Of a stretch of DNA of 64,000 bases, positions 28,176-46,149 are shown piece by piece (within the stretch, counting starts at the first letter, position 1; each line of letters opens with the position of its first letter). The notes beneath the pieces were generated by a model, which saw only the letters and a program-made list of their open reading frames with translations, was not told where the DNA came from and did no database searches. The stretch is taken from the NCBI RefSeq assembly GCF_900112175.1, contig NZ_FOYT01000001.1, positions 1,364,001 to 1,428,000 on the forward strand, read 5' to 3'. The DNA is from Halogeometricum rufum (GTDB lineage Archaea > Halobacteriota > Halobacteria > Halobacteriales > Haloferacaceae). Both the position numbers and the translations under genes were made by a program.

Positions 28176-28247
28176 GGGCTCGTAGATCAGTGGTAGATCA
28201 CTCCCTTGGCATGGGAGAGGCCCCGGGTTCAAATCCCGGCGAGTCCA
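28176..28247 (+). tRNA. tRNA-Ala (anticodon GGC)
   Basis: A complete 72-base cloverleaf. The acceptor arms GGGCTCG and CGAGTCC pair over seven positions, including G3-U70, the universal alanine identity pair. The anticodon stem CTCCC/GGGAG encloses loop TTGGCAT with anticodon GGC at 28208-28210. The T arm carries GTTCAAAT. The 3' CCA is not encoded and there is no intron. The last 13 bases are part of the 16-base direct repeat that bounds the integrated element, so this gene is the attachment site. The tRNA stays intact after integration because the element supplies the same 3' end. Confidence 0.97.
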
Positions 28248-28250
28248 CTC
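28235..28250 (+). repeat. attL: left copy of the 16-base direct repeat
   Basis: CCCGGCGAGTCCACTC, covering the 3' T-arm/acceptor side of tRNA-Ala plus three flanking bases. It is identical to 44364-44379; the bases on both sides of the repeat differ between copies. Confidence 0.92.
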
Positions 28251-28256
28251 CGATTC

Positions 28257-28412
28257 TTCCGCCGTACCCAGGGAACACGACCGCACGGTACGTTCTCTGA
28301 GGCGGCTGGATTCGCCATTTCTGGCTTAGAGATTACTCCCTCACAGAAGGGAGTTCAACAGAATTTCAAGTGCGGGCCGCCGCCTGCTTGCGATTTTGTG
28401 AGGGAACGGAGG
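28257..28412 (+). ncRNA. Candidate structured RNA, copy 1 (behind tRNA-Ala)
   Basis: This 156-base block aligns without a single gap to 45194-45349 at about 80% identity (31 differences by eye). The differences are spread evenly over the three codon positions, so it is not protein-coding. Both copies can form the same hairpins: CGTACC/GGTACG (28263-28268 with 28287-28292), GCCA/TGGC (28314-28317 with 28322-28325) and GCGG/CCGC (28372-28375 with 28380-28383). In all three the stems are unchanged while differences fall in the loops. A fourth hairpin (around 28335-28354) forms in both copies with a shifted register. It starts nine bases after the tRNA and is probably co-transcribed with it. Strand is inferred. 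Confidence 0.5.
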
Positions 28413-28420
28413 TGGTCGAC

Positions 28421-28540
28421 GTGACCGTCCACGAGGACGCGAGCTACTGCCTGCGTCCCATCTGTGAGTTCTGCGGCTGTGAATTCGACCGTCCGGAGAA
28501 GCGCTGCGCGGCGCTCGAGGATGGGAGGTGTCAGCCGTGA
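28421..28540 (+). CDS. Cys-rich mini-protein, possible zinc finger
   Basis: A 39-residue frame from a GTG at 28421 (an in-frame GTG at 28412 is an alternative). It carries five cysteines in RPICEFCGCEFDRPEKRCAALEDGRC plus an earlier Cys, in CxxC spacing compatible with metal binding. Such zinc-finger mini-proteins are frequent in haloarchaeal plasmids and viruses. It is the first gene after the structured block and lies at the left end of the element. Too short for the usual gene-finding thresholds. Confidence 0.5.
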   Translation: MTVHEDASYCLRPICEFCGCEFDRPEKRCAALEDGRCQP

Positions 28541-28551
28541 TTCGAAGGCCC

Positions 28552-28641
28552 CCAAAGAGGGTCCGTCACTGTTCCAAGGCAGTGACCCTCTTTGGCGCGC
28601 CGCTCCCGGCCTCGGGAGCTCCCAGACCACCAGAGGTGGTC
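28552..28641 (+). other. Three consecutive strong hairpins between small genes
   Basis: Three inverted repeats follow one another. 28552-28595 has a 10-bp outer stem (CCAAAGAGGG with CCCTCTTTGG), a four-base bulge, a 6-bp inner stem (TCACTG with CAGTGA) and an eight-base loop. 28603-28618 is CTCCCG-GCCT-CGGGAG. 28625-28641 is GACCACC-AGA-GGTGGTC. They fill the gap between the mini-protein stop (28540) and the next start (28646). They look like RNA structure (processing, attenuation or translational control) rather than a coding segment. Confidence 0.7.
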
Positions 28642-28645
28642 CGGC

Positions 28646-28843
28646 GTGTGTGACCACTCGGTTAGACGCATTGAGCGTTACGACGCCGAGATGAGTTCGG
28701 CTAGGGACTCTGTCAACGAGACTTTGGAACATCTCGGTCACCAACAGAGTCGAAACCGCTTCAGGAACTACCGTAGGGTAGCAGTCGGAATCCTCTTGGC
28801 ACGGTTCATCACCTCGAAGGAAACTGGAGGTGCTCAGCGGTGA
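28646..28843 (+). CDS. Small helical hypothetical protein of the element
   Basis: A 65-residue frame starting with GTG (VCDHSVRRIERYDAEMSS) and continuing SARDSVNETLEHLGHQQSRNRFRNYRRVAVGILLARFITSKET. It is basic and mostly helical. The start was chosen just behind the hairpin cluster; an in-frame ATG at 28592 would place the hairpins inside the gene. Its TGA overlaps the GTG of the next gene (28840), so the two are co-translated. Family not recognised. Confidence 0.5.
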   Translation: MCDHSVRRIERYDAEMSSARDSVNETLEHLGHQQSRNRFRNYRRVAVGILLARFITSKETGGAQR

Positions 28844-29583
28844 GCCAGATCGATGTCGATGAACGACTTGCTGAGCTCACCGAGCGCCTTGATGCCCTCG
28901 AAGAGGAAAACGCGGAGCTTCGCGAAGAGCTGCACGAGAAAGACCAGCGCATAGAGCGTATTGAGGAGAACAATCAATGGCTCACGCAGTATGTCGCCGG
29001 TCTCGAAGAGGAAGTATTCGGTGACTGGACTGCTGGAACACTTCTCGCTGAACTGGGAGGTGATTCACTCGGTGACGTCGTTGCCGACCTAGTCGATGAT
29101 GTCGAGGCCGTTCACGATACCGCCACACAAGAGACTCTCGAACGTAAGGTCGGACTGCTCCGGTCTGAGCACGGGGCCATGTTACGGAAGCTCGCCGAAG
29201 AGAGCGGCGTTGACCTCGGAATTACTCACGGGGACATCATCACAAAGGTCCGCGAGGAAGGTATCGATTCGGCTGGCATCGGACATCGGGTCTACAAGAA
29301 GCACCGTCGCGCCGAGATCGTCCTCTCGAACATCGAAGACTGGGGGAAGACACGGACTGTCAACGGCATAACCACGTACCGACTCGAACGGCCAGACGTC
29401 CGTCGGTTCCTCAATTCCCAGCCCGACGTCGACATCACCCTTCAGTCGAAGAACGTCGGTGATGTCTTCGACGCAATTGAGGAACTCGCTGAGGGCTCAC
29501 CTCGATACGTCTCACGGAGAAAGGAAGACGGCACCGACACGCTGTACGTCGGTTGGATCACCAACCGAGGCGAGTCCCAATGA
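28840..29583 (+). CDS. Coiled-coil plus winged-helix-like protein of the element
   Basis: A 247-residue protein starting GTG in a GTGA overlap. Residues 1-60 form a leucine-rich coiled coil (LAELTERLDALEEENAELREELHEKDQRIERIEE). Residues about 80-200 are helical with a winged-helix look (AMLRKLAEESGVDLGITHGDIITKV, HRVYKKHRRAEIVLSNI, TYRLERPDVRRFL). The end is SPRYVSRRKEDGTDTLYVGW. The layout suits a plasmid-type DNA-binding protein for replication, partition or repression. The palindromes directly downstream (29595-29809) are its natural candidate targets. I do not recognise a named family. Confidence 0.7.
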   Translation: MSQIDVDERLAELTERLDALEEENAELREELHEKDQRIERIEENNQWLTQYVAGLEEEVFGDWTAGTLLAELGGDSLGDVVADLVDDVEAVHDTATQETLERKVGLLRSEHGAMLRKLAEESGVDLGITHGDIITKVREEGIDSAGIGHRVYKKHRRAEIVLSNIEDWGKTRTVNGITTYRLERPDVRRFLNSQPDVDITLQSKNVGDVFDAIEELAEGSPRYVSRRKEDGTDTLYVGWITNRGESQ

Positions 29584-29882
29584 CTGTAATGTATATTACG
29601 CCCGTCGTAAGGTCGGCTCAACGGAGTCCAGTAAGCCGCACCGTTCTCGCTCATCCTAAACCACCACCAAACTAAATCTCACCCCTACTGCACCGCAACC
29701 GCACTTGTACTAGCTCCTTTCGTTAGCTGTAAGGCTGCCGACTAACTCGCCGCTAACTCGCTTGTCGCGGCGAGTTAGCTGTTCGACTATCTTACGACGG
29801 GTGTAAGATGAGAACCCTATCCCATTTCGTCGTTATCGAGTTGTATGCTGGTTTTATGTATCTCGAATAGAAGTTCCCCTCA
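29584..29882. promoter_or_regulatory. Repeat-rich intergenic region: candidate origin/operator block
   Basis: Within 299 bases there are three nested symmetries. Two copies of a palindromic site TTAC-N7-GTAA are at 29596-29610 and 29792-29806; they face each other as a 16-base inverted repeat with one mismatch (TTACGCCCGTCGTAAG at 29596-29611). A perfect 12-bp inverted repeat, CTAACTCGCCGC at 29742-29753 with its complement at 29767-29778, follows. Direct repeats CTAACTCGC (29742, 29753) and GTTAGCTGT (29722, 29774) are also present. A TATA-like ttttatgta near 29850-29858 serves the methylase gene. The block fits a plasmid origin with iterons or a repressor operator. Confidence 0.6.
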
Positions 29883-32800
29883 ATGACCACCCTCAAGCAG
29901 ATCACGAAAGATGATATTGCGGGATGGGAGACCCTCAAGGATGTCGCATCTACCTTCGAGAAGCGCGGGCTGAAAGTTCGTGAGACCCTCGGCGAGGACA
30001 ACGAACTCGTCCTCCAGCTCACCGACCGTGAGTTCATCGTTCTCGTCGAAGCGGGGCCAGGGGAATCAGCCTCAGACTTCAAACCCGACGACCGGCGGCG
30101 CCGAACCAACCTCGTCGCTACCAACGACTACGAGGAGTTCACGTTCCTCACCCGCATTCGAGCGCTCGACGGACAACAACACGGGCGCATCAAACACCAA
30201 AAGCTCTCGTTCACGAAGGAGCAGATGACCAGCAAGGGAGGCGAGAAGAACACCATCCTCCAGAAGCTCAACAGCCTCGAGTACGGATCTGCGGCAGCGA
30301 TCTACGACGACCTCTACGATACCAAGCAGGTCGTCAAAGAGTTCTACCAGCAGTTCGAGACGCTTCGCACCGACCTCGTCCAGGAGGTCGCCGGCATCCC
30401 CGACGACCGCGGTGACGCGAAGCAACGGTACGTGCAGGTGACGCTCGACCGGATGATCTTCCTCTACTTCATCCAAGAGAAGCGCCTGCTCGACCGCGAC
30501 CCGAACTACCTCCACGACCACCACAAACAACGCGTGGATGACGGCGAGGACGTCTACGAAGAATTCTACGAGCCGCTGTTCTTCGACTTCCTCGCCGAGA
30601 ACAAGAAGAGCACCGAGTTCGGCGCACTCCCGTACCTCAACGGTGGGTTGTTCTCGAAGAACCCTATCGAGGAGGAGTTCGAAGACGCTCGCCTCGGTGA
30701 GACGACCAAGCAGACCAACGAGCTGTTCGGAGACATCCTCGACTTCCTCTCGGACTGGAACTGGAACGTGGACGAGCGGCTCGACATCGTCGATCCGAAG
30801 AACCTCTCGCCGGCCATCCTCGGGCACATCTTCGAGCAGACGGTCAACCAGAAGGAGATGGGGGCGTACTACACTCCTGAGGAGATCACCGGGTTCATGT
30901 CCCGCCGGACGATTCACCCGTACCTCCTCGACCAGCTGAACGAGGAAGTCGGTGCCAACTACGAGGAGATTGACGACGTCTTCGGGTTCCCCGCTCCGGA
31001 CGCTGAGAGCGGTGTGGAGGCGCTAGCCGACGGCGGGGCAGTCACGGCACAAGTCCCGACAGAAAACGTCGAGACACGGCATGTGGAGACGTTATACCAC
31101 GACTTCCTGAAGGAGGTTCGCGTCCTCGACCCTGCCGTTGGTAGCGGGGCATTTCTGCTCGCCGCTCAGGAAGTGTTGCTGGACATCTACATGCAGTGCA
31201 TCGAGTTCTTCCAGCAGGTTGAAGACGAGGGGAGAGCGTGGAAACTGGAGGAGCGCACAGTTGAGGAACTGGAACGAATCGAAGAAGGGCGAGGGAATCC
31301 CTCGTTATACGCCAAGCAGTCAATTATACTGAACAATCTTTACGGAGTAGACATCGACGAAGGAGCCGTTGAGATTTGTAAGCTCAGATTGTGGCTGTCG
31401 ATGGTCGCAGACATAGAGGACGAACCGAACGAAGTCGAGCCTCTACCAAACATCGATTTCAACATAAGGGAAGGCAACTCATTGATGGGGTTCACAGACC
31501 TCGTCGAAGTCAACGATGATGGCGACGCTCCACTCTCAAACTGGGGGGGTGGCGTTGGTGAAGGCGTACGTGAGATGTATGATGATGTTATTGATGCTGT
31601 GAAGTCTCATCGGAGTGCGTCCTCATCAACTGAGGCATCAGAGGCCCGAAGACGGGCTGAAGCACTGATTGATGAGCACCAGAAAAAGCTGAACGAAAAG
31701 ATACTGGAAAGGTTCAAGGATGCCAATATCAGTGAGATCAGTGCAGACAACTTGGAGCAATTCAAGCCATTCCACTGGGTTCTTGAATTCGCTGTGGTTT
31801 ACGAGTCTGGTGGGTTTGATATCCTTATAGGTAACCCACCGTGGCGAGCGTTAACCCCCGACAGAAATCGATACTTCACTCAATTCGATCCAGGGTTTCG
31901 AACACTCCCTGCGAGCCAAAAAGAAGACCGTATAGAAGAGCTCTGCGAGGACGAAACAATCGCTGAAGGATGGCAGCAGCACGAGGAAGATATTGACCGT
32001 CTCAGAGCCTATTATGGTGAGAACCCAGACTACCAACTCCAGAGTCCGGAAGTTGGAGGGCAAGGGACAACAGACCTTTCAATGCTCTTTTTAGAAAGAG
32101 CATTCCAGCTGAACTCAAACGAGGGGTACACCACATTCGTACTCCCCGGGAAGCTCTTTACCGGAATGTCTTCTGGAGACATCCGTGAACACCTGCTAAC
32201 CAAGACACGGCTAGACTACATCATTGGATTCGAAAACAAGGGTATCTTTGACATTGACGACAGGTACAAGTTTGGTATTGTCTCATTCAAAAACTCTGGA
32301 ACTACCGAACAACTGCGAGCAAAGTTCCTACAACGAGACCTTTCGGTTCTTGAAGACACGGACAGCTTGCTAAGTATCCCAGCCGAGGTTTTAAGAGATT
32401 ACTCCCCTCGAGCGACCATTTTCCCACAAATTTCGAATGGCCGCGAGTTGTCTGTCATGAATACGATTGTCGATCACGCCCCAATTAGTCAAAAGCTGGA
32501 TGACAAATGGGATATAGACATCTACGGTGAAGAACTCCATCGGACACGCGATTCGGAATACTTTGTGGAGTCTCCTGAAGAAGGCGATTACCCCGTTTAC
32601 GGTGGCGGGAACTTCTGGTTGTTCGCGTACGACAATACGTTCGTAGACGATCTTGCAGACATCGAATATTGGGGTGTTGATGAAACACGAACAGACCACC
32701 CAAGTGCCAAATCCCGTGTCAGAGGCAAGAACGAAAAGCGTCTCAAGAAAGCAATCTTCGAGGCCTTCAATGGGACAGGTTCTCAGATTGGGTTTGTAAA

Positions 32801-33485
32801 TGACCTGCTGGAACGCCACAGGGGAGATGGGCTCAAAGAGGACGATGTCCTACTAGACTGTACTACCCATCGGATCGCTTTCCGAGACGTTTCAAATAAC
32901 ACCAACGAGCGGAGTATGGTCGCTGCAATACTTCCAAAGGGAGCTGTTTGTCACAACAAAGCACCTACCATTCGGCCATACAGCATCGAGCCAAAGAAGG
33001 AGGATTTGTCTAAAGAAAATCTGCACGACATGTATGCCAGGAAATTCACTAACTCTGAACTATTCGCCGCTCTGGGCCTTCTTAATAGTATCCCATTCGA
33101 CTATATTGTTCGGACAAAGCTGGATACCACAATGAGTGTCAATGCTATTGAAGAGTCTCAAGCTCCACGATTGTCTGAAGGGAACGACTGGTTCAATTAC
33201 ATCGCAGAACGGTCGGCTAGACTGAACGCGTATGGTGAGGAGTTCACTGATGCTAGAAAAGAAATGGGGGGTATTGAGCCTGCAACTCAAGAAGAGACTC
33301 GAGACGAGATTCAGGCGGAGGTTGATGCTGCTGCATTCCACGCCTACGGTTTCGAAAGGCGAGATGTAGAGTTCGTTCTTGAGAACTTCCATAGGGTTTC
33401 GAGTCCACGCATCATGACTGAGGAGTACTTCGACATGGTGTTTGAGAAGTTCGACCTGTTAGAGGCGGAAGGGCCCTTCAATTAA
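29883..33485 (+). CDS. Large N6-adenine DNA methylase (Eco57I/PglX/DrmMI-like)
   Basis: A 1,200-residue protein. The N-terminal about 320 residues are helical. GAYYTPEEITGFM (near residue 327) opens the methylase domain. The AdoMet-binding motif I VLDPAVGSGAFLL is near residue 413 and the catalytic motif IV NPPW near 648, the D/N-PP-W of N6-adenine enzymes. The C-terminal half should hold target recognition, with YPVYGGGNFW reminiscent of specificity domains. No clear nuclease motif is seen, so cleavage probably depends on neighbours. Base composition changes from host-like GC-rich to AT-richer after about 31,100-31,300, suggesting exchange of the recognition half. The TATA-like box 25 bases upstream implies a leaderless start. 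Confidence 0.9.
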   Translation: MTTLKQITKDDIAGWETLKDVASTFEKRGLKVRETLGEDNELVLQLTDREFIVLVEAGPGESASDFKPDDRRRRTNLVATNDYEEFTFLTRIRALDGQQHGRIKHQKLSFTKEQMTSKGGEKNTILQKLNSLEYGSAAAIYDDLYDTKQVVKEFYQQFETLRTDLVQEVAGIPDDRGDAKQRYVQVTLDRMIFLYFIQEKRLLDRDPNYLHDHHKQRVDDGEDVYEEFYEPLFFDFLAENKKSTEFGALPYLNGGLFSKNPIEEEFEDARLGETTKQTNELFGDILDFLSDWNWNVDERLDIVDPKNLSPAILGHIFEQTVNQKEMGAYYTPEEITGFMSRRTIHPYLLDQLNEEVGANYEEIDDVFGFPAPDAESGVEALADGGAVTAQVPTENVETRHVETLYHDFLKEVRVLDPAVGSGAFLLAAQEVLLDIYMQCIEFFQQVEDEGRAWKLEERTVEELERIEEGRGNPSLYAKQSIILNNLYGVDIDEGAVEICKLRLWLSMVADIEDEPNEVEPLPNIDFNIREGNSLMGFTDLVEVNDDGDAPLSNWGGGVGEGVREMYDDVIDAVKSHRSASSSTEASEARRRAEALIDEHQKKLNEKILERFKDANISEISADNLEQFKPFHWVLEFAVVYESGGFDILIGNPPWRALTPDRNRYFTQFDPGFRTLPASQKEDRIEELCEDETIAEGWQQHEEDIDRLRAYYGENPDYQLQSPEVGGQGTTDLSMLFLERAFQLNSNEGYTTFVLPGKLFTGMSSGDIREHLLTKTRLDYIIGFENKGIFDIDDRYKFGIVSFKNSGTTEQLRAKFLQRDLSVLEDTDSLLSIPAEVLRDYSPRATIFPQISNGRELSVMNTIVDHAPISQKLDDKWDIDIYGEELHRTRDSEYFVESPEEGDYPVYGGGNFWLFAYDNTFVDDLADIEYWGVDETRTDHPSAKSRVRGKNEKRLKKAIFEAFNGTGSQIGFVNDLLERHRGDGLKEDDVLLDCTTHRIAFRDVSNNTNERSMVAAILPKGAVCHNKAPTIRPYSIEPKKEDLSKENLHDMYARKFTNSELFAALGLLNSIPFDYIVRTKLDTTMSVNAIEESQAPRLSEGNDWFNYIAERSARLNAYGEEFTDARKEMGGIEPATQEETRDEIQAEVDAAAFHAYGFERRDVEFVLENFHRVSSPRIMTEEYFDMVFEKFDLLEAEGPFN

Positions 33486-33511
33486 CACCGGAATCATCCT
33501 GTCCACAAGCA

Positions 33512-34543
33512 ATGGTGTACCACGTCAACGACAAAGGTGTCACCGCACTCGAACCCACCAGCTTCGATGCCCTCGACCTGACCGAGGCTGACATCGAAGA
33601 GTGGATCATCGAGACACCCTCGATACTCGACGAAGACCTACTCGTGGTCGCCTCCTAGTACGCCAAGTTCGACCGAACTGCCGAACGTCCCGACGTGTTG
33701 GCACTCGACCCCGATGGGAAGCTCGTGGTCATCGAACTGAAACGGGATAGCGCCGACAAGACGACCGACCTCCAGGCCATCAAGTACGCGAGCTACTGCT
33801 CGACTATCAGTGCCGAGGAACTCCAGCAGGACTACCGAGCGTTCTGGAACAACCGCCGCGACGAGGATGACCAGCTCACACCCGAAGCGGTCGGCGAGCA
33901 GTTCAGCGAGTTCCTCGGCGAGGACGTCGCCACTACTGAGGACGGCTACGCCGATTTCGTCCTAGACGACCGGCCACGGATCTTGCTCGCCGCAGGAAGC
34001 TTCGCCCCGGAGATTACCACGCCCGTCGTCTGGCTGGAACGCGAGTACGGGATGGACATCACATGCATCGAACTAGACGTCCACCAACGCGACGAGGAGG
34101 TGTTCGTCAGTGCGCGGCAGGTGCTTCCGATTCCAGAGGCCGAGGAATACATGGCCAAACGGCGGCAGAAGGAACGACAACAGAGTCGGTCGTCGAGCCG
34201 GGCAGATCGGGCGATCACTGTCTTGTTAGAGGCGGGACTCGTCGCGGAGGGGGACATAGTCCTCTTCGACGACGAAAGCCTACCAGACGACGCTGAGCGC
34301 GAGTACGGCCCGGACGACGACTTCTGGCGTGGTCGAATCACGGGGAAGACTGGTCGGAGTGACAACGTCGAGTGGTTGGAGAACGGTGCAGAGTACTCAT
34401 TCACCGCCCTTGCCCAAGAGGTGCTTGAACGGGCGACTGGTCGTGAGTTCAACGTCAATGGCTATCCCTACTGGATACACCCTGAGCATGAGATGAGCCT
34501 GTCCGATCTCCGACGGTCGAAGGTTGGTGACATCGATTGGTGA
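33512..34543 (+). pseudogene. PD-(D/E)XK nuclease gene with DUF91-like domain, interrupted by an in-frame TAG
   Basis: From an ATG at 33512 the frame reads MVYHVNDKGVTALEPTSF to VVAS, meets TAG at 33656-33658, and continues in the same frame to 34543 with no further defect. After the stop come RPDVLALD and VIELKRD, the D...ExK catalytic core of restriction-like nucleases (NucS/DUF91-like). A C-terminal about 100 residues (FWRGRITGKTG, WLENGAEYSFTALAQEVLERATG) resemble a RAMA-type modified-DNA reader. One base change (GAG to TAG) would explain the break. A shorter product could begin at the GTG at 33695, lacking about 60 residues but keeping ELK. It lies 26 bases after the methylase gene and is probably its restriction partner. 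Confidence 0.82.
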
Positions 34544-34833
34544 GGTTGTGAATGAAGAGCGTTGAGCCTGGAGATAGAGCCCGCATCGACATCCCCCAAT
34601 TGAGATGACCCAGACTTCCAGTATCGCGGCGAGTTATCGAAGTACTCGGGTGTGATGGGGCGCAACCACTGGTGACGAGCAAGACTCGTTTATCTACCGA
34701 ATTCGGCTAGATTCAGGTGGCCAAGTGGATGTGAGGTGGCGTGACCTACGTCCCTGACCCGAGAAATTCGCGAGCTTCTGCAGAGAGTCTCAAAGCACAA
34801 GGCAGCGGTTTGCTGTGATGTTGGAGTTAGTGT
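34544..34833. other. Intergenic region behind the nuclease pseudogene
   Basis: 290 bases without a convincing frame or strong repeat. The right end is AT-richer and presumably contains the promoter of the next gene. No tRNA or known motif was recognised. Confidence 0.4.
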
Positions 34834-35439
34834 ATGATCCCGCCAGAGCTATCGATTACACTTTCCTCCAACAACGAGCGCAATCTTCATCATGTAGGAA
34901 GAAGAGAATATATCATGGTAGAGGTAGTGAAGGAGGGGTTCTTGAATGAAGATATTCGGGAACGCAAGTCATCTCGGATGTTCCCTGAGGACGAATATGA
35001 ACGAATACTCTCAGCTGTCGAGGATGCGCCAGATAGTGTATTTGAGACAGATCAACGGACTCTGGACAGCCACGTAGCAGATGCAATCCCCGACTATTAC
35101 TTCGAAGAAGATGCGGCGTCAGGCCGGAATTCGAAGTGCAAATTGTGGACTCCAGACTTCGACCATAGTGTAGACCTATATCACCCAGAAGAACGGATTG
35201 CCATTGAGATTGAAAAGAGCCAACAGAAACGCGTGAGCGATGACATACTAAAGTTCGTCAAGGGGGGGAAGACGCAACGGAACAACCGTAAGAAGGTCGA
35301 GTTTGGATGTCTGATTGTCCCTGTGAATTGGGGGAGCAAAAATAACAATCTCTACAACGAAGCCATGCAGTGTATGCGGTTCATCAGGAGCGTGCTACAC
35401 GTTGAGGATATCGCAGTAATCGGATATCGAATTCAATAA
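34834..35439 (+). CDS. Small restriction-like nuclease, PD-(D/E)XK type (predicted)
   Basis: A 201-residue protein; an internal ATG at 34918 (MVEVVKEGFLNEDI) is a plausible alternative start, giving 173 residues. LWTPDFDHSVDLYHPEERIAIEIEKSQQKRV has the pattern D-x(n)-ExE-K expected for a PD-(D/E)XK active site (TPDF... IEIEKS). GCLIVPVNWGSKNN forms the next strand. The protein is basic around the motif and low in GC. It is unlike the DUF91-type neighbour, so it is a second, independent nuclease candidate in the same cluster. Its stop is seven bases from the stop of the convergent helicase gene. Confidence 0.6.
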   Translation: MIPPELSITLSSNNERNLHHVGRREYIMVEVVKEGFLNEDIRERKSSRMFPEDEYERILSAVEDAPDSVFETDQRTLDSHVADAIPDYYFEEDAASGRNSKCKLWTPDFDHSVDLYHPEERIAIEIEKSQQKRVSDDILKFVKGGKTQRNNRKKVEFGCLIVPVNWGSKNNNLYNEAMQCMRFIRSVLHVEDIAVIGYRIQ

Positions 35440-35446
35440 GTGTGAA

Positions 35447-38400
35447 TCACTGGCCGATAACGCCCCAACAGATGAGGCGAGCCTGCACAGCACTCTCGCC
35501 CACCAGCGTCGTCTGGTACTCGGCAGATGCTTCGATGTTGTTCTCAATGAACGCTTCCAGTTCGACAAGGAACTCCTCAACGGGCCAGTCACCAAGTGAT
35601 GTGTAATCAGGGTGTTCGCGGAACGTCTCTCGCAACACGCGGTCTTCGTCCGAGTGTTCGAGTTTCACCTTATCCAGTTGGTCGAACAGTGCGTTCGTCC
35701 AATCACTAACCGTATCGTATCCGTCTACAGGTGCTGGCTGGTTTCCATATTGTGGAAGGATCCGCATCTGCATCATGTCGAGCAGCATTTCCTGTGTGGC
35801 TGACTGCCCTCCACCACTGAATACCTCCTCAACCTGCCCTTCACGTATCTCCTCTAACCGCTCGGAGAGATGCTCCTCGATAGACTCTCTGTTCGCAACC
35901 ACTCTGTCTGTATTCCCCGAGAGCTGCTCCCCCTGGGTATCGGGGGTGATGGATAGGGCACCGACTGGTCGCTCTTTGAGGTCACCGCTAAATGGTTTGT
36001 AGTAGAATGCCCGCCGTACCCGTCCAAGCGGTGCATCCTCAGGTTCACCCGTCTCTTCGTTCTCGAACCACAGATGTACAAGGCCGAACACACCCGGACG
36101 CGGGCCACTATCGTGGCCAACGGCGTTCGTATAGAGGAAGTCACGTTCGTCGGTCGGCTCCTCGAAGTAGTCCTCCGCGAACTCGAAGTCGTCCGAAGAC
36201 AAGCCGTAGTCGTCGTTCAGTTCCTCCTTGAGCAGCACGCGCTCGAACGCTGCGTTCTCGTCGCTCCCTGCGTTCCGTAGTAGTGGATTCTTCGAGGTGT
36301 CGTCCAGCTCGTTGTAGTCCGTCACCTCACGAGATTCCCGAATCGACGACTCGATCTCCTCGATCTCGAGTTCTCCGATGGTCTTCTCAGTCTCAACACC
36401 AGCCTTCTCAAGCACCGCATCCTCGTTCGGGTCGAGGATGTTGTTCTCCTTGCCGACGATGAGCGCGATGTCGTTGATCTTCGCCTGCAAGCGCTGGAGG
36501 AGCTTGATCGCCGCCTCAATGTCACCGTCGGGATAGAAGTTGTGTACGTACTTGTCCGCTGTCGAACCGATGCGGTCGATGCGACCGACACGCTGGACAA
36601 TCCGCATGGGATTCCACGGCAGGTCGTAGTTGACGACGACAGAGATGTCTTGGAGGTTCACACCTTCACTGAGAGTGTCCGTCGCGACGACGTACTGCAA
36701 CTCTGTCTCGTCACTCTCGGCTAGCGTCTGCTGGTATCCCGACGCCTCTGGAGCGAACCGTTTGATGACGTCTTGCTTGTTCTCGTCGCCACCTTTGACG
36801 ACCGCACTGTTCTCCATCGTCATGGGTGACGACTCGTTCTCGACGAGTGTCCGATGGACGTAGTCCGCAGTCGCGCGGTACTGCGTGAAGATGAGCACCT
36901 TCTGGTCGTACCCGTTCAGAACGTCGGCTAACCGGTCGATCTTGGGGTCACGGAACTCGCGGAGAGCAAACACTGCTTGGTAGAAGTCCAAGGTAGCGGT
37001 GTCGGCTTCACTCAGATCATGTCGGGGATAGAGGGTGGGGTTGGGGTCGTCTTCAGGCACGTCTGGGAGAACTGCTGCACCGTGATCGGCGAGCCACTGC
37101 TCCAGTTCGACCTCCATGTCCGCTATCGCCCCCGAGTCTCGAGCCACACGCCCGATGAATCGTGAGAGGAAGTACGCGAGGAGGGTGAGGTCTTCGCGAA
37201 TGTACGTCTTCACCTCTCCGACCGTGGCATCGGCTAGCTCGTCGTCCGCATCACCCCCATCGGCTCGAAGCGCACCACTGTCGAAGCCGAACTCCTCGAG
37301 TGTTTGTTCCAGGTCTTCAACTGCGTCTGCTCCCTCGACGAAGTCATCCAGTGTCGAACCAGCCTCGTCGGTGTCGAATGTGCGTAGGACGTCGATGTCT
37401 TCGTCCTCTGGTAACCCCTCAAGGAACCCAAGGAGCGCCCGTTCACTCTCGTGGAGGGTCTGCACCGACTGGACGAATGCATAGGTAGACGACTCTAGCC
37501 GTTTCAGCAGGTTGAGTTTGTAAAGCGCTTTCAGTGTGCTCCCTGCTTTGGGATTCTTGATTGTGATGTGTGGGAGGTGGAGGGCGTCCATCACGTCAGG
37601 CAGCATCCGATAGATTGGCTGGTATGCAGGGGGGAGCGAGTACTGCTCCTTGTTGAGCTCTGGCGGCTTGAAGCTCATCTCGAACTCGTCCTGATCGGTC
37701 AGGGTGTCCTTGACGTGCTTCCGAGTCCGAAGCACCATCACCTCGTTGAGGATTTTGGAAATCTCCTGTGAGTGGCGCTTGAGTTGCTCGGTGATTTGGC
37801 GTTGGTCTTCCTCGGAGGCTTCCTCTTTACCAGCGGCAATTCGCTTGCGCTCGGCTGCGAGGTCAATGTAGTCGTCGAAGGCGCTGAACTTCAGCGACGC
37901 CTTGTTCATGAGTTCGTTTTCGTCGGTAAACAACCCGATGAGGTTCTTGAGGTCGCTCGCCGAGTTGTTGATCGGCGTCGCAGTCAGCATGATCATCGTG
38001 TTGTTCCGGAGAAGCCGAACGTTCGCGTGTCGTCGAGTTCCCTTGTAATCGTCGTCGTCAACCGGGTTCGGTCGCCACTTTCCGTGGTTCCGGAACCGAT
38101 GTGCCTCGTCGATGAGCACAACCTCGAATCGGTTATCGAGGGCGTTCACCTCCTCATACGTGAGGTTCTGGAACTTGCTGATACTCATCACCTGCAAGTG
38201 TTCACCGTCAACTTCGAGACCAAAGAATGGTTCTCCGTCTTCGTCAGTAGCGTCTTGGAGGAGATCACGCCACTGATCAGTTAGGTTGGCTGGGACGAGG
38301 AGAAGGCAGCGGTCACCTTGCTCACGGTAGTCGTAGAGGAGTTCGCCCCCGATGAACGACTTGCCAAGGCCGACGGAGTCTGAGATGATACAACCGTTAT

Positions 38401-39265
38401 ACTGTGAGAGTTTTGTTTTTGCACTCTCATACCCGAGCGTCTGGAAGTAGTAGAGAGGACTATCTCGAACACTGACGTTGCCGTTCAGCTCGTCATAGGC
38501 TAGGAGCTTGTACATCTCGAAAGGCTCCAGGTATGTACCGTACTCCTCGTCAACGTCGTCATCATCATCCTGCTTCCCTTTCCAATCTTGGTACCGTCCA
38601 CTGTTTTCAATGACCGTAACAATCTCTTCGCTAAACTCCTCAGCCTTCGACCACTGATCGTCGAACCATCGCTCGAACTCCCTTGCGTCACCCTGTTCTT
38701 GACTGGTCAGGTTGAGCTCGACGTTGTGACGGTGACCACTCTGTGAGAAGTTAGATGACCCAACAATGGTCGCAGCCGCGCGACGGTCTTTTTCACCCTC
38801 ACGTGTCTTTGGATCCTCCGGAACAGCCCGGAAACAAGCTCCCTTCGCGTGGAAGTATCCTTGCTCTGGGTTCCGAACCCGAACGTCAACCTGGCCACTT
38901 GCGATATAATCCTTGAGATTGTCCAAGCGTTCCACCTGAGCGTTATTTAGACCCGAGATGTCTTCCTTTAGCTCCTCACGAAACTGTTCACGGAGCGTCT
39001 GGCCCTCTTCTATCTCGTCAGAGGTACGCTGGTCTGTTTGCCGTCCCATGAGGATGCGGAAGGGAGCTCGCTCCATCTGCTCTGGATCACGGAGATTTGC
39101 AAGGTCTTCCTTGACAAGGTCGAATCCAGAGAGGTAGAAGTACCCAGTTGCGACACGAATTTCTTCGCACTGAGGGATGACCTTCTTGTAGACGTCCTCC
39201 AGCGTCGAGTCAGTGTTGTCGACGAGTGGATCGAGAGAAAGCATTGGATGATCTCGCATCAGCAT
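35447..39265 (-). CDS. PLD-domain SNF2/DEAH helicase (DrmD-like defence helicase)
   Basis: A 1,272-residue protein. Residues about 1-240 form a phospholipase D-like nuclease domain: ATGYFYLSGFDL, then the HKD-type pieces YFHAKGACF and IVGSSNFSQSG. The helicase core has Walker A DSVGLGKS (near 296), the DEAH box LIDEAHRFRN (near 385), motif III TATPINNS and motif VI QRVGRIDRIG (near 885). The C-terminal about 250 residues are acidic and helical. The SNF2-like core should translocate on dsDNA. Start is uncertain: a TATA-like attttcttta at 39275-39284 sits close, so the ATG at 39244 (MLSLDPLV) is possible. It is convergent with the methylase-nuclease genes, which suggests a shared defence role. 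Confidence 0.9.
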   Translation of the reverse strand: MLMRDHPMLSLDPLVDNTDSTLEDVYKKVIPQCEEIRVATGYFYLSGFDLVKEDLANLRDPEQMERAPFRILMGRQTDQRTSDEIEEGQTLREQFREELKEDISGLNNAQVERLDNLKDYIASGQVDVRVRNPEQGYFHAKGACFRAVPEDPKTREGEKDRRAAATIVGSSNFSQSGHRHNVELNLTSQEQGDAREFERWFDDQWSKAEEFSEEIVTVIENSGRYQDWKGKQDDDDDVDEEYGTYLEPFEMYKLLAYDELNGNVSVRDSPLYYFQTLGYESAKTKLSQYNGCIISDSVGLGKSFIGGELLYDYREQGDRCLLLVPANLTDQWRDLLQDATDEDGEPFFGLEVDGEHLQVMSISKFQNLTYEEVNALDNRFEVVLIDEAHRFRNHGKWRPNPVDDDDYKGTRRHANVRLLRNNTMIMLTATPINNSASDLKNLIGLFTDENELMNKASLKFSAFDDYIDLAAERKRIAAGKEEASEEDQRQITEQLKRHSQEISKILNEVMVLRTRKHVKDTLTDQDEFEMSFKPPELNKEQYSLPPAYQPIYRMLPDVMDALHLPHITIKNPKAGSTLKALYKLNLLKRLESSTYAFVQSVQTLHESERALLGFLEGLPEDEDIDVLRTFDTDEAGSTLDDFVEGADAVEDLEQTLEEFGFDSGALRADGGDADDELADATVGEVKTYIREDLTLLAYFLSRFIGRVARDSGAIADMEVELEQWLADHGAAVLPDVPEDDPNPTLYPRHDLSEADTATLDFYQAVFALREFRDPKIDRLADVLNGYDQKVLIFTQYRATADYVHRTLVENESSPMTMENSAVVKGGDENKQDVIKRFAPEASGYQQTLAESDETELQYVVATDTLSEGVNLQDISVVVNYDLPWNPMRIVQRVGRIDRIGSTADKYVHNFYPDGDIEAAIKLLQRLQAKINDIALIVGKENNILDPNEDAVLEKAGVETEKTIGELEIEEIESSIRESREVTDYNELDDTSKNPLLRNAGSDENAAFERVLLKEELNDDYGLSSDDFEFAEDYFEEPTDERDFLYTNAVGHDSGPRPGVFGLVHLWFENEETGEPEDAPLGRVRRAFYYKPFSGDLKERPVGALSITPDTQGEQLSGNTDRVVANRESIEEHLSERLEEIREGQVEEVFSGGGQSATQEMLLDMMQMRILPQYGNQPAPVDGYDTVSDWTNALFDQLDKVKLEHSDEDRVLRETFREHPDYTSLGDWPVEEFLVELEAFIENNIEASAEYQTTLVGESAVQARLICWGVIGQ

Positions 39266-39334
39266 ACTGACTAAAGAAAATATCCATTGAATTCGCCATC
39301 CACGACCGCGTATTCATCTAGTTGCGAGGCGGTA

Positions 39335-39943
39335 CTACTCAGCAGTCCCTCCCGCTCTCATTGCTTCACCAATTCTCGTTTCTGTTGGTTCCGCAAGATA
39401 CGGCTCAATTGCTGAGTAGTCAGACCAACCCCCGATACTCATCATCGTCCGCACATCGACTTGGCGCTCTACGAGGTGATAGGTTGCCCACGAGCGGCGG
39501 AGGTCGTGGGACGATACTGATTGCCAGCGCGGTTCACTGAGGTCGTTGAAAACTTCGTGAGCAGCTTCCTTCACCCAACGTCGTACTGATGGAGTGCTTA
39601 CGTCCACCCAAGAGTCAGAGGAGTTCATTCCCTTTTCTCGGCTGTATTTGTGGATATCCTCGGCGACGTGATCGGGCATCCAGGCATCACGGATCTTTCG
39701 GTGACCTCCTTTGGTATTCTTCCCGCGAATCTCGAATAACCATATATCTCCCTCTTCAGAGTATCTAAGATGTCTGTCGCTGGGATAGCTCACCTCAGAT
39801 GCTCGCAGGCCACATCTTCCCATCAGCTGTAATGCAATCTCTCGCTTCCACCCGTCTTCGCCGGCTGCACTCTCAAGAAGATTCAATTCATTCGGAGAGA
39901 GCCAGCATTTCGTTATGTCGTCGGCATCGTCGACGCGAACCAT
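39335..39943 (-). CDS. Short tyrosine recombinase without N-terminal core-binding domain
   Basis: A 202-residue protein equal to the catalytic domain of a tyrosine recombinase. The first Arg is in GRCGLRASEVSYP. Near the C-terminus SSHDLRRSWATYHL supplies H-x-x-R, GGWSDYSAIEPYL the next conserved His/Trp position (Trp here), and the Tyr of EPYL is the nucleophile candidate. The usual SAM-like N-terminal arm is missing. It lies in the middle of the element, away from either att site, so it is more likely a resolvase or invertase-type enzyme or a relic of an earlier insertion than the active integrase. Moderate GC. Confidence 0.85.
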   Translation of the reverse strand: MVRVDDADDITKCWLSPNELNLLESAAGEDGWKREIALQLMGRCGLRASEVSYPSDRHLRYSEEGDIWLFEIRGKNTKGGHRKIRDAWMPDHVAEDIHKYSREKGMNSSDSWVDVSTPSVRRWVKEAAHEVFNDLSEPRWQSVSSHDLRRSWATYHLVERQVDVRTMMSIGGWSDYSAIEPYLAEPTETRIGEAMRAGGTAE

Positions 39944-40159
39944 AATCGAGTATTGCAGACAACTCGACTAGTTCTTTCGGTGGACCCACTTCGATTGGAG
40001 CTGAAACAGGGCTAATTTCCAACCACGTAATCGGGTTTTACAATAAAGCGTTCACACAATGACGAGCGATCTCACCGGCGGATTCTAGTGAATCTCTCCA
40101 TCCACCTTCCTAGCAGTCCACAACTGAATACAGTTAGCGGTTCGAATAGGGGGTACGGA

Positions 40160-40642
40160 TTATCTGAAGGGGGCACAGAGAGAGGAATAGTTCGCGTCGA
40201 GGAGTTCACGATTTCGTCCGCCATCTCCTTTCCCTGCTAATCTCCAATGCTCACTCCCGTTCTTATCTTGGACGGGCATATAGAAGTCACCGCTGTGGAG
40301 TTCCTTGTCAGGGACGACGTAGTATTCCTGAGCCTTCGCGCCGAGGAACGCGTGAACCAACGCGGGCCCACGTATGCGTAACTCGTCATTCTTCCGTACG
40401 GACCCTCCCCAGAAGTTGAACGCCTTGCTGTAGTGCATCCACACGAGTGCGTCGCCGGACTCGGTTCGCGCTGTGCAAACGTTTCGTTTCTGTCCGTCTG
40501 TCACGGTGTTGATGTCGTTGCACTCCCGCAATTGTTTCTTGAATTCCTCACGTCGCTTATGCTGGCCCATTACACGGTTTTGCTGTGTTTCGGTCACGGA
40601 CGCTGGCTCATCGTCGTCTTTACTGAAGTCGTCAAGACCCAT
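40160..40642 (-). CDS. Hypothetical protein of the element
   Basis: A 160-residue protein beginning MGLDDFSKDDDEPASVTETQQ. It contains a basic helix (MGQHKRREEFKKQLREC) and a strand-rich middle (ALVWMHYSKAFNFWGGSVRKNDELRIRG, EYYVVPDKELHSGDFYMPV). The end is EHWRLAGKG and NYSSLCAPFR. I do not recognise the family. The start at 40642 was preferred to a GTG at 40657 because an AT-rich box (aaatttaacc on the minus strand, 40668-40678) lies about 30 bases upstream of it. GC is about 50%, well below host genes. Confidence 0.6.
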   Translation of the reverse strand: MGLDDFSKDDDEPASVTETQQNRVMGQHKRREEFKKQLRECNDINTVTDGQKRNVCTARTESGDALVWMHYSKAFNFWGGSVRKNDELRIRGPALVHAFLGAKAQEYYVVPDKELHSGDFYMPVQDKNGSEHWRLAGKGDGGRNRELLDANYSSLCAPFR

Positions 40643-40968
40643 TGACCCACTAAACACGAGTTACCGTAAACGGTTAAATTTTGCCTCACAGACCCTCTAG
40701 AGCGTATTCTACTAGCGTCTAGCGCCTAGTTCTCCAGTACACTAGAGAGGTGGCAGGCTGGTTGCCTATCAGTATCAAACGATATTTCCTAGTGGCCGCT
40801 CAGGCGAGACTCGTACCATTCAACCTTACAACTAGGTCATGATCGACAGATAATGCTATCCAAATTTGATGATATTAACAAATTTGTACGACAGCTAAGT
40901 GATTGATTCGCGTGTTATACTCAAATCGGCCACGAACAAGTTTTCATCGAGTGGTGGTTTCAACTCGC
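40643..40968. other. AT-rich intergenic region with a CTAG cluster
   Basis: 326 bases with no protein frame. Seven CTAG tetranucleotides occur between 40697 and 40835 (at 40697, 40712, 40719, 40726, 40742, 40789 and 40832), although CTAG is generally avoided in haloarchaeal DNA. Farther right the sequence AAATTTG occurs twice (around 40861 and 40879), 18 bases apart. This may be a regulatory or maintenance locus of the element. Confidence 0.6.
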
Positions 40969-41181
40969 TCAATCCTCGACCGGGGAAGTCTTCCGGTCGT
41001 ATCGGTCTATTAGCAGAGAGAGCTTGTCATCTGCAGACAACTTCGAGATGTCTACGTTGATTGTTCCTTGTAGTGCGTTATCGATTCGTGCGACCGTTCT
41101 TGGGTCAAGACGAGGGTATTCGTCAGGCCGATCCTGAGAACTTTGGTCCGTCTCTCCTCGTTTTCTGGAATCAAACCCCAT
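40969..41181 (-). CDS. Small hypothetical protein with palindromic start region
   Basis: A 70-residue hydrophilic protein: MGFDSRKRGETDQSSQDRPDEYPRL, then DPRTVARIDNALQGTINVDISKLSADDKLSLLIDRYDRK. The second half is helical and resembles small regulator or antitoxin-type proteins, but no family is recognised. The start codon lies inside a perfect 7-bp inverted repeat (AAACCCC-ATACA-GGGGTTT, 41172-41190), so the protein or another regulator could bind its own start region. Confidence 0.5.
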   Translation of the reverse strand: MGFDSRKRGETDQSSQDRPDEYPRLDPRTVARIDNALQGTINVDISKLSADDKLSLLIDRYDRKTSPVED

Positions 41182-41283
41182 ACAGGGGTTTCACAGGCCC
41201 TATACATGTATTCTACCACCTCCGTGATGGTGAATTAACCGCGTAACGCGGGTCAGACACGACAAGATAGATTTGGAAGGCCT

Positions 41284-41317
41284 TGTTGAAACCCTCTACT
41301 TGTGATAGGTTTCAACA
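41284..41317. terminator. 10-bp inverted repeat (hairpin)
   Basis: TGTTGAAACC at 41284-41293 and GGTTTCAACA at 41308-41317 are perfect complements with a 14-base spacer. It lies between the small gene and the host-like glycine-rich gene. It could be a terminator or an operator. A single copy, so not a CRISPR repeat. Confidence 0.45.
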
Positions 41318-41440
41318 GTCCTCCTGAATACACAGCGCGAGTCGGCTGGAGCCGAGCGGGGGACTACGGTGGGCGGAAAAGTCACCGGCAGACCACCGGA
41401 CACCGAACCGGTTTTCTTACTGCCAGGCCGGCCTTGGGCC

Positions 41441-41629
41441 ATGGCATCGGACGACGAAGCGGAGTCGTCGATGGACGAGGAGCGGTTCGCTCTCGGCATC
41501 TCGCTCGGGGTGTCGCTGGGCGTTTCGTACGGCATCATGTCCGACAACTTCGGCCTGGGTATCAGTCTTGGCCTGGCCGTCGGCGTCTCGCTGGGGCTGC
41601 TGTGGGGGCAGGCCGCCGAGAGCGAGTAG
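41441..41629 (+). CDS. Small glycine-zipper membrane protein
   Basis: A 62-residue protein, MASDDEAESSMDEERFALGIS, followed by repeated small-residue segments (LGVSLGVSYGIM, LGISLGLAVGVSLGLLWG). These form two short hydrophobic, glycine-rich helices. The GC content (41,330-41,640) is clearly higher than the flanking element DNA, as in host genes. The ATG at 41441 was preferred to the upstream one at 41369, whose extension is not protein-like. Function unknown; the glycine spacing suggests close helix packing in the membrane. Confidence 0.6.
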   Translation: MASDDEAESSMDEERFALGISLGVSLGVSYGIMSDNFGLGISLGLAVGVSLGLLWGQAAESE

Positions 41630-42019
41630 AGGAGTAACGGGTGACAGCTCGGCGTGCCAAGTGCATTGTTTGTCAACAAACAGGAGCAACCGCGATTTTC
41701 GGAGGGCTTCCATCCAATCAGGCTACTGGACGTACCTGTAACTTCCCGAGGATTTCAACAGAGCCATTTTGGAATTATTATTGGAACCAAGTGCTTTATA
41801 GGCTGGGCTTGACCTGCGGCCCAGATTTCTCGGCCTGGGTCTGACCTGCTCTTGAACTGGTTCAGACCTGCTCTTGAACTGGTTCTGACCTGATCCGTTT
41901 GTTGTAGTGCGTTTCCGGATGTGGGGCAGCCCTTGCTAGCAGCTACGAAACCCAATCCCGGGCACCAGGGATCTCACGATCCTGTACCGAGGCCCCAAAT
42001 ACCTCGGAAGATCAGTTGC
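41630..42019. other. Intergenic region with 22-base tandem repeats
   Basis: 390 bases without a protein frame. A 22-base unit, (T)C(T/A)GACCTGCTCTTGAACTGGT, is repeated at 41840-41861 and 41862-41883 with one difference, and a partial third unit begins at 41884. Related GACCTG words occur just upstream (around 41813). Iteron-like, but only two full units. Confidence 0.6.
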
Positions 42020-42712
42020 TCACTCGAACCCACGATTGTCGTGTTGGTTATCAGACGCTCTTGAGTCTTCACTCCGGTGTCTCGATTCATCCCGAACGAA
42101 TTCCACCATCTCCTCAAAACTAATTCTACGGCAATGAATCAGATATTCAACTTCCTTGTTTGAAAGTGGCTTATCGGATCTGAACTTTGACTCTAATCGG
42201 TCAAGGTTTACATCGGGATCAGACACCGTGATGTTAACATCGACATCCCGAACCGTGCCGATGCTACCATATGCATCTTCAAGTCCCTCCTCAACGAGAC
42301 TCTGGATAATCTCTACCGAGTGTACGTCTTCTGATTCAAAGAAATCAAGACCCTCAAGGGACTCAAACAGGCATTGATAGCAGAACGCGTGCATACTTCT
42401 AAATCCGCCAGTCATTATCGGAGGCACGTCTTCGTTGACTTCGACGATATCCCACTCTAATTCCGGAGGTCCTAGCTCCTCCCCTTGATGATGCCTCATT
42501 ATGGGTGATCGGCCATCCGAGGACAGCATTACCTGAAGTCGGTCTTTTGGCTCCATGTGTGCAAACAGAAGTGAGAAATCGGTAATTGCACTACGGACAC
42601 GTTTTCTTATCCGCATGCGTTGATTTCGATTTGCTGCGTCGCTTTTAGATGAGTTTCCTCGGAGGTATTCGATGTCACCGTTAGTTAGAATCCCGGCAGT
42701 TCTATCTGACAT
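42020..42712 (-). CDS. Haloarchaeal conserved protein of unknown function
   Basis: A 230-residue protein starting MSDRTAGILTNGDIEYLRGNSSKSDA, then NRNQRMRIRKRVRSAITDFSLLFAHM. This N-terminal block (GILT...YLRG...R.RIR.RVR.A..DFSLL) is a recurrent haloarchaeal family often found on islands and plasmids. The rest contains a histidine/cysteine segment (HAFCYQCLFESLE) and ends in a hydrophilic tail. The role is unknown. The start at 42712 was taken at the family-like MSDRT; the 32-codon extension to 42808 overlaps the divergent small gene. Confidence 0.7.
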   Translation of the reverse strand: MSDRTAGILTNGDIEYLRGNSSKSDAANRNQRMRIRKRVRSAITDFSLLFAHMEPKDRLQVMLSSDGRSPIMRHHQGEELGPPELEWDIVEVNEDVPPIMTGGFRSMHAFCYQCLFESLEGLDFFESEDVHSVEIIQSLVEEGLEDAYGSIGTVRDVDVNITVSDPDVNLDRLESKFRSDKPLSNKEVEYLIHCRRISFEEMVEFVRDESRHRSEDSRASDNQHDNRGFE

Positions 42713-42777
42713 AGGTGCGTAACAATGCTCTGTTACGAAACCAATCCCTATTATCCCTCCCGGCACTGTATCAAATG

Positions 42778-42912
42778 ATGCCCACTGAATCATCCATCCC
42801 CTGTTCAAAAGGAACTCGCGACTCTGTCAGGGCCCTGAAACGGGGTGGGCAAACGTATGACGAACTGTTGCAGCTAATGGTCACACAGTATGACCCAGAC
42901 GCTCCAGCATAG
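42778..42912 (+). CDS. VapB/ribbon-helix-helix-like small protein (orphan antitoxin candidate)
   Basis: A 44-residue frame, MPTESSIPCSKGTRDSVRALKR, then GGQTYDELLQLMVTQYDP. The pattern 'IPVSKxTRDxLRxLKRGGxSYDxLLxxLLxQYDP' is common in haloarchaeal short antitoxin-like proteins: a strand followed by two helices. No toxin gene (VapC PIN or other) is adjacent; the neighbours are the divergent conserved gene and empty DNA. The start may be the preceding ATG at 42775. It could be an orphan antitoxin or a small DNA-binding regulator of the element. Confidence 0.6.
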   Translation: MPTESSIPCSKGTRDSVRALKRGGQTYDELLQLMVTQYDPDAPA

Positions 42913-43281
42913 TACTCTCTAAGAGCAGCCCGAACGGTTGTTCCGGTCTCATGTTCACTGGTTCCGGGTTCCGTTCGAACCACTCAGCAAGGTCGGAGCA
43001 GCAACGGACGTGCTCCTATCCAAAGATTAGTCTTTGGGAGTAAGAGCATTTGGGTCCGTTGTCTGCACTTCCGATTCGCGGTCAAATTAGCAATACACCA
43101 AGATAATGGTTCAGACACCTGCTGCCCAAAAATGCACCCAACAGAATAGCTCAGATGACTCGTTTCATTCGCAGATCACTTCTCGTGCTGCGCAGATCGA
43201 ATCAGGGTGGTCCGATTGAGCGGATCAGATGAGCGTCGAAGCACATTTCGTGAAGCAACGCCACCACAAAATCGGGGTTCC
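42913..43281. other. Intergenic region before the integrase gene
   Basis: 369 bases with no convincing gene. A perfect palindrome CCAAAGATTAGTCTTTGG (43021-43038; 7-bp arms, four-base centre) may act as operator or terminator. The integrase frame is open from a GTG at 43207, so part of this stretch could be coding if that start is used. Confidence 0.5.
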
Positions 43282-44286: not shown

Positions 44287-44363
44287 CGCATGACGAACTC
44301 CACTCCACGACCGATGGGTCGACGTTCTACCAGAGCCTCGGCAGGCAACCGTATTGACCAAGG

Positions 44364-44379
44364 CCCGGCGAGTCCACTC
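44364..44379 (+). repeat. attR: right copy of the 16-base direct repeat
   Basis: CCCGGCGAGTCCACTC, identical to the tRNA-Ala 3' end at 28235-28250. No tRNA is formed here because the upstream sequence does not match the rest of the tRNA. It marks the right border of the integrated element. Confidence 0.92.
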
Positions 44380-45135: not shown

Positions 45136-45193
45136 CTCGAACTGACGGGAAACACGCCTTTTTGAAGAATGATAGAGCTTGTAGGCGTGTGCC

Positions 45194-45349
45194 TTCCGCC
45201 GTACCTAAGCAACACGACCGCGAGGTACGTTCTCTGAAACGGCTGGATTCGCCACTTTTGGCTTCGAGAACGCTCCCTCGCAGAAGAGCGTTCGACAGGA
45301 TTCCAGGAGCGGGCCACCGCCCCCTTGCCGTTCCGTGACGGAACGGGGA
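45194..45349 (+). ncRNA. Candidate structured RNA, copy 2 (outside the element)
   Basis: Ungapped counterpart of 28257-28412. Fully conserved blocks include AACACGACCGC, GGTACGTTCTCTGA, CGGCTGGATTCGCCA and GCGGGCC. The CGTACC/GGTACG, GCCA/TGGC and GCGG/CCGC hairpins are intact. The 3' hairpin here is perfect (CCGTTCCG-TGA-CGGAACGG, about 45328-45346), while copy 1 keeps part of it through G-U pairs. It sits in the convergent gap between the DUF4242 gene and the HTH-10 gene, with no tRNA in front. Strand and transcription are inferred from the first copy. Confidence 0.48.
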
Positions 45350-45385
45350 TGGTCGGTCGTGTCTACTCTACCGTCGCAGACGCGC

Positions 45386-46060: not shown

Positions 46061-46149
46061 GGCCCGTCTATCGACCGAGGCGCGGATAAACCCCACATGC
46101 ATACCTCACAGAACCTCCATTCCACGAGCGGTCGTAACGCGAAATAGCG

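Follow-up and report, generated by a model that had tools for sequence, protein, structure and literature searches.

A reading frame across attP, and a candidate structured leader, at a tRNA-Ala(GGC) integrative element of Halogeometricum rufum

In pleolipovirus-like proviruses, a coding sequence spans attP from the integrase gene to the gene behind attP, which in pleolipoviruses encodes a CxxC protein, and this coding sequence is split on integration (Dyall-Smith & Pfeiffer 2021, PMC7911831). In the virus SNJ2, circularisation forms one operon, which begins within the integrase gene, includes the att-spanning orf26 and extends to a replication gene (PMC13107129). SNJ2 orf26 is translated, the only such frame for which translation in the circular form has been shown, and nonsense mutants of any gene of the operon, orf26 included, fail to replicate (PMC13107129). 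Tests in Haloferax volcanii and E. coli found overlapping stop/start pairs to be strictly coupled in 13 of 14 cases (PMC6728339).

The locus described here lies in a stretch of 64,000 nucleotides of the Halogeometricum rufum genome (contig NZ_FOYT01000001.1, positions 1,364,001 to 1,428,000), referred to throughout as the window. A block of sequence present there in two copies had been taken in a first-pass annotation for a stand-alone structured RNA. It is strongly supported that the block instead belongs to an attP-bridging ORF, of which it is the attL-side half; split ORFs of this kind are already known, and the block is not a new free-standing RNA. What is new is the wide group of tRNA-Ala elements that carry it, together with evidence that selection keeps the RNA fold and the open frame more than the peptide.

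The repeated block and its element

In a blastn search of the window's own genome the block occurs in exactly two places, 28256-28418 and 45193-45355, which align without gaps over 163 nt at 81% identity (E 1.8e-38). This bears out the two-copy ungapped repeat of about 80% identity reported earlier. The placement given then also holds, with copy 1 directly behind tRNA-Ala, which ends at 28247, and copy 2 outside the element, beyond the attR core. The features concerned are:

28176..28247, plus strand: tRNA-Ala (GGC), the target of the element (ARAGORN, Rfam RF00005)
28235..28250, plus strand: attL core CCCGGCGAGTCCACTC, the 3' end of tRNA-Ala; 16-nt direct repeat with 44364-44379
44364..44379, plus strand: attR core CCCGGCGAGTCCACTC, 16-nt copy of the tRNA 3' end
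28251..44379: integrative element of about 16.1 kb, attL to attR (att repeats, integrase, cargo)
43207..44286, plus strand: SNJ2-type tyrosine integrase (PF00589; identity to pleolipovirus integrases)
28256..28418, plus strand: copy 1, read as the attL-side part of the attP-bridging ORF, a folded RNA (blastn, frame, fold, joined ORF)
45193..45355, plus strand: copy 2, decayed relic (blastn; no att core, TAA, P1 mismatches, no zinc-finger gene)

The element is placed at about 28251-44379 because the copy of the tRNA 3' end at 44364-44379 sits behind the integrase gene. The attR core begins 77 nt behind that gene, and the order of integrase, then under 100 nt or so, then att recurs in several related elements. 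Copy 1 is the attL end of this element. An integrase homologous to IntSNJ2 and a 16-nt core in the 3' end of tRNA-Ala mark the element as SNJ2-type. The integrase is about 43-44% identical to those of the pleolipoviruses SNJ2, HRPV9 and HHPV4 (for SNJ2, 44% over 93% of the length). SNJ2 itself reportedly inserts at tRNA-Met.

The cargo is defence-like, with a type IIG-like methylase (29883-33485) and a PDC-S11-like protein (33695-34543), and also includes a PLD/SNF2 helicase (35447-39265, minus strand) that matches HKD and Snf2 models. A Pfam scan of ten window proteins returned restriction-type cargo and integrases, with no spike, membrane or replication protein among those ten. A second, short integrase-family protein is encoded inside the element (39335-39943, minus strand) and is ~80% identical to ones in the elements labelled L081, L093 and L097; perhaps it has an accessory role, or is a remnant. 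Divergent from tRNA-Ala, an S15-Halobacteria ribosomal protein leader (Rfam RF03143; 28009-28071, minus strand) lies ahead of the S15 gene.

Copy 2 carries an in-frame TAA (45206-45208), shows mismatches in P1 and broken helices, and has neither an att core nor a zinc-finger gene. It is best understood as a decayed end left by an earlier element at this site, and the earlier view of it as a second functional RNA fails on these grounds. The 3' end of a gene for an HVO_0513/HTH_10 regulator (45386-46102, minus strand) abuts the relic.

Further homologues were collected with blastn and then with a covariance model built from twelve copies. Such a search had been proposed as a check in the first-pass annotation, and it found homologues across haloarchaeal genomes, with compensatory changes in the helices P1 and P4 described below. 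By the covariance model, homologues occur in 35 of 391 genomes of the class and in 21 of 86 genera, hence in at least 21 haloarchaeal genera; in the window's own family they occur in 16 of 170 genomes, and in two other families in 22 of 125 and 10 of 146. Carriers include species of Natrinema, Halorubrum, Halovenus, Natronosalvus, Halomarina and Natrarchaeobius. Almost every strong match has the block starting 10 nt after tRNA-Ala(GGC) or after a truncated tRNA 3' end, CCCGGCGAGTCCACT, which is the attachment core. Four other genomes of the genus have, behind the same tRNA, other sequence (two), the block (one) or an internally deleted remnant (one), and some genomes hold two tandem copies of the block. 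The fixed place behind the tRNA, the patchy presence, the other sequence in congeners and the tandem copies are the signature of a mobile element. Tandem copies in the same direction lie 9 kb apart in L054 and 5.7 kb apart in L096, as expected from repeated integration at one tRNA.

No Rfam family matches the block at gathering score, so the statement that no named RNA family fits it holds as far as Rfam is concerned. Viral contigs searched with one 20-nt pattern, plasmid records searched with copy 1 (blastn) and phage records searched with copy 2 (blastn) gave no match.

The bridging frame and the fold of the block

When the right end of the element (44290-44379) is joined to the left end (28251-28424), an 87-codon ORF runs across attP and ends with TGA at 28422-28424. 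The att core sits inside this ORF, which is split when the element is integrated. Its parts, and the gene over which it ends, are:

44290..44379, plus strand: 5' half of the bridging ORF (MTNSTPRPMGRRSTRASAGNRIDQGPASPL), immediately downstream of the integrase gene; L081, L158, L091, L092 and L085 have a similar one
28242..28424, plus strand: 3' half of the bridging ORF, att core through stop TGA 28422-28424, coding for ...SPLRFFRRTQGTRPHGTFSEAAGFAISGLEITPSQKGVQQNFKCGPPPACDFVRERRWST* (open frame, joined ORF)
28408..28415, plus strand: Shine-Dalgarno-like GGAGGTGG, 5 nt before the zinc-finger start codon (from sequence; kept in most copies)
28421..28540, plus strand: gene for a 39-aa zinc-finger microprotein, GTG start (conserved core ICxxCG...C.AL...C, pN/pS 0.30)

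In the window, 3 nt lie between the integrase stop and the start of the bridging ORF, and the start is similar in five more elements. As in the described attP-bridging coding sequences, the start closely follows the integrase gene on the same strand, the ORF contains attP and is split on integration, and it ends over the gene for a CxxC protein, whose GTG (28421-28423) overlaps the bridging stop TGA as GTGA. All six elements with both ends in hand give a joined ORF of 86-87 codons that ends at the same place. In a seventh (L100 with L050) bridge and zinc finger form one 114-codon ORF across attP.

The bridging frame is open in 25 of 26 full-length copies. It contains a single stop in these 26 copies versus 14.3 +/- 2.7 expected from column shuffles (0 of 1000 as low), and the other two frames contain 68 and 70. 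Exceptions are L027 and L074, in which the frame is broken, and a few copies without a recognisable zinc finger. In the same 17 copies pN/pS is 0.95 in the block versus 0.30 in the zinc-finger core, and the value for the block is no lower in the open frame than in the other two frames. The coding claim therefore rests on the open frame, its length and the junction, and not on codon bias. Translation through the block seems to be under selection, the peptide sequence much less so. An open frame with unconstrained amino acids explains the even spread of differences over codon positions, which had been read as evidence against coding. That argument does not hold, as copy 2 is decayed and carries an in-frame TAA and the frame is open across the family.

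Each of the 26 copies of the block tested folds better as RNA than its dinucleotide shuffles do (mean z -2.8). The mean z is -3.0 on the plus strand and -2.0 on the minus strand (p 0.016); the zinc-finger region gives -0.9 and the sequence upstream of the tRNA -0.5. Two helices show compensatory changes:

28261..28306, plus strand: hairpin P1, pairs 28261-28266/28301-28306, 28269-28275/28293-28299 and 28280-28282/28287-28289, mostly with a GNRA loop
28337..28405, plus strand: long-range stem P4, 28337-28346 paired with 28396-28405 around a variable 3' hairpin (covariation)

For P1, scored jointly with the pairing of the att core and TGGATTCGCC, 11 pairs are changed on both sides (four of five measures are reached by 0 of 500 shuffles), and P4 has 20 cells with a change on both sides (0 of 500 shuffles), in both cases against shuffles that ignore the relatedness of the copies. 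The three hairpins put forward as conserved in the first-pass annotation (CGTACC/GGTACG, GCCA/TGGC and GCGG/CCGC) are not supported: they show no covariation among 32 homologues, with two pairs changed on both sides and as much reached by 170 of 500 shuffles. Selection on structure thus stands as a general claim, as the fold beats shuffles and P1 and P4 show compensatory changes, but the hairpins it was built on are not the conserved ones. Other candidates were set aside, among them a local hairpin CTCCC/GGGAG without covariation, the weak 3' hairpin P3, and a reading as an H/ACA guide RNA, for which Rfam gave no match.

A 27-nt 3' motif lies at the same place in HHPV4 and pHK2 (0 of 500 shuffles as high) and more weakly in SNJ2 and Halfgib1. 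It is read in a different frame in HHPV4 and pHK2, which points to constraint on the nucleic acid.

TGGATTCGCC is an inverted copy of the tRNA 3' end, with 8-10 nt of complementarity to the att core at fixed spacing. Its predicted pairing with the tRNA 3' end is suggestive only, a lead and not a result. An integration switch built on this pairing was set aside as no more than suggestive, with two tRNA changes compensated and at least two uncompensated. The Shine-Dalgarno sequence is unpaired at 0.23 with the native and 0.25 with shuffled upstream sequence (p 0.47); because the fold hides it no more than shuffled sequence does, an off-switch by sequestration is unsupported. A Shine-Dalgarno/anti-Shine-Dalgarno switch (GCCACUUUU with GAGGUGG) was likewise discarded, with 89% of cells paired, no covariation and no extra hiding relative to shuffles. 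In the circular plasmid PL23 of Natronomonas pharaonis an unannotated zinc-finger ORF lies directly behind the integrase gene (L175, 20411-20535, minus strand); the circle thus has integrase and then zinc finger, but no copy of the block.

A proposed coupling and other explanations

The explanation that we favour, with a probability of roughly 0.7, is that the block serves as a structured leader which is translated and ties the zinc-finger protein to the circular state, forming half of the attP-bridging ORF of a tRNA-Ala(GGC) element, and that copy 2 is the decayed end of an earlier one. We infer its leader and coupling part by putting together the SNJ2 operon data (PMC13107129) and the coupling at overlapping stop/start pairs (PMC6728339). 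Excision and circularisation would make the integrase gene, the 87-codon bridging ORF and the zinc-finger gene contiguous on one strand. Ribosomes on a transcript that comes from the integrase region of the circle would translate the block and re-initiate at the zinc finger. Integration would leave the ORF cut and without a start, behind a processed tRNA, and synthesis of the zinc finger would fall. The half of the ORF contained in the block may in this way signal to the element its own state, inserted or free.

A bolder version, to which we give somewhat less than even odds, treats the att-spanning ORF as a sensor of genome shape. Its peptide would be irrelevant, the frame being kept open and folded only for the passage of ribosomes in the circle, and re-initiation would occur at a zinc-finger regulator made, for that reason, only when the element is free. 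If so, the nonsense phenotype of SNJ2 orf26 would be at least partly a loss of coupling.

The bridging ORF could instead encode a fast-evolving functional protein of the sort proposed for SNJ2 ORF26, produced in the circle alone, with the RNA fold incidental. The open frame, the fixed length and the fixed start and stop positions fit such a protein, as do residues that are frequent in the bridging peptide (PQG, AGFA, PSQ, RW). A GFP fusion of SNJ2 ORF26 is stable, and nonsense mutants of the gene do not replicate, which the SNJ2 authors take to mean that the protein itself is required (PMC13107129). However, the pN/pS of the block does not fall below that of the other two frames and is far from that of the adjoining zinc finger, fold and covariation exceed those of neighbouring sequence, and the 3' motif common to HHPV4 and pHK2 sits in another reading frame. 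Such a fast-evolving protein is rather unlikely. The peptide appears almost free to vary while frame and fold are kept, which suggests that coupling, rather than loss of a protein, could account for the replication defect known from orf26 nonsense mutants.

It is quite unlikely that the block acts at the DNA level, as an attP arm with binding sites for the integrase or helper proteins, including the inverted tRNA 3'-end copy TGGATTCGCC. The block always adjoins the att core, its complementarity to the core has a fixed spacing and includes two compensated changes (L041, L067), and archaeal att sites are reviewed as needing extra flanking nucleotides (PMC8371274). Yet such an arm leaves the open frame unexplained, one strand gives the stronger fold signal, many G-U pairs being retained, and some tRNA-side changes are uncompensated (the L036 group and L075). 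The original view of the block as a stand-alone structured non-coding RNA, co-transcribed with tRNA-Ala, shares with the coupled leader the fold, the covariation and the fixed place behind the tRNA. Against it, one frame is kept open through the block, with 1 stop where 14 are expected, and joins the ORF behind the integrase gene across the att core in every element tested; patchy presence fits mobile elements, and Rfam gives no match. We regard it as highly improbable. On the coupled-leader explanation, what looked like a mystery RNA becomes a specific part of how haloarchaeal mobile elements may sense integration.

Comparison with known systems

Rfam cis-regulatory leaders such as S15-Halobacteria RF03143 resemble the block in being structured RNAs ahead of a small gene in haloarchaea. 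The candidate leader in the window differs in matching no Rfam family and in being itself an ORF that integration splits. The termination-reinitiation pairs of Haloferax volcanii (PMC6728339) share with it the stop/start overlap (GTGA/ATGA) and a Shine-Dalgarno sequence inside the upstream ORF. Unlike in those pairs, the upstream ORF in the window is whole only in the excised circle.

The orf26 of Natrinema virus SNJ2 (PMC13107129) is likewise formed by circularisation, downstream of an SNJ2-type integrase gene and upstream of one or more small genes; there the small downstream genes belong to one operon and the ORF is translated. However, orf26 reads the shared 3' motif in a different frame from the bridging ORF of the window.

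The attP-bridging coding sequences of the proviruses (PMC7911831) also start just behind the integrase gene, span attP, end at or over a CxxC gene and are split in the provirus; the likeness is one of arrangement, with no relation of peptide sequence established. In contrast to those proviruses, the element in the window looks non-viral, carries defence genes and is inserted at tRNA-Ala(GGC), and some of its relatives fuse bridge and zinc finger. The idea of a bridging coding sequence, described for a handful of proviruses, thereby comes to cover tRNA-Ala elements of at least 21 genera.
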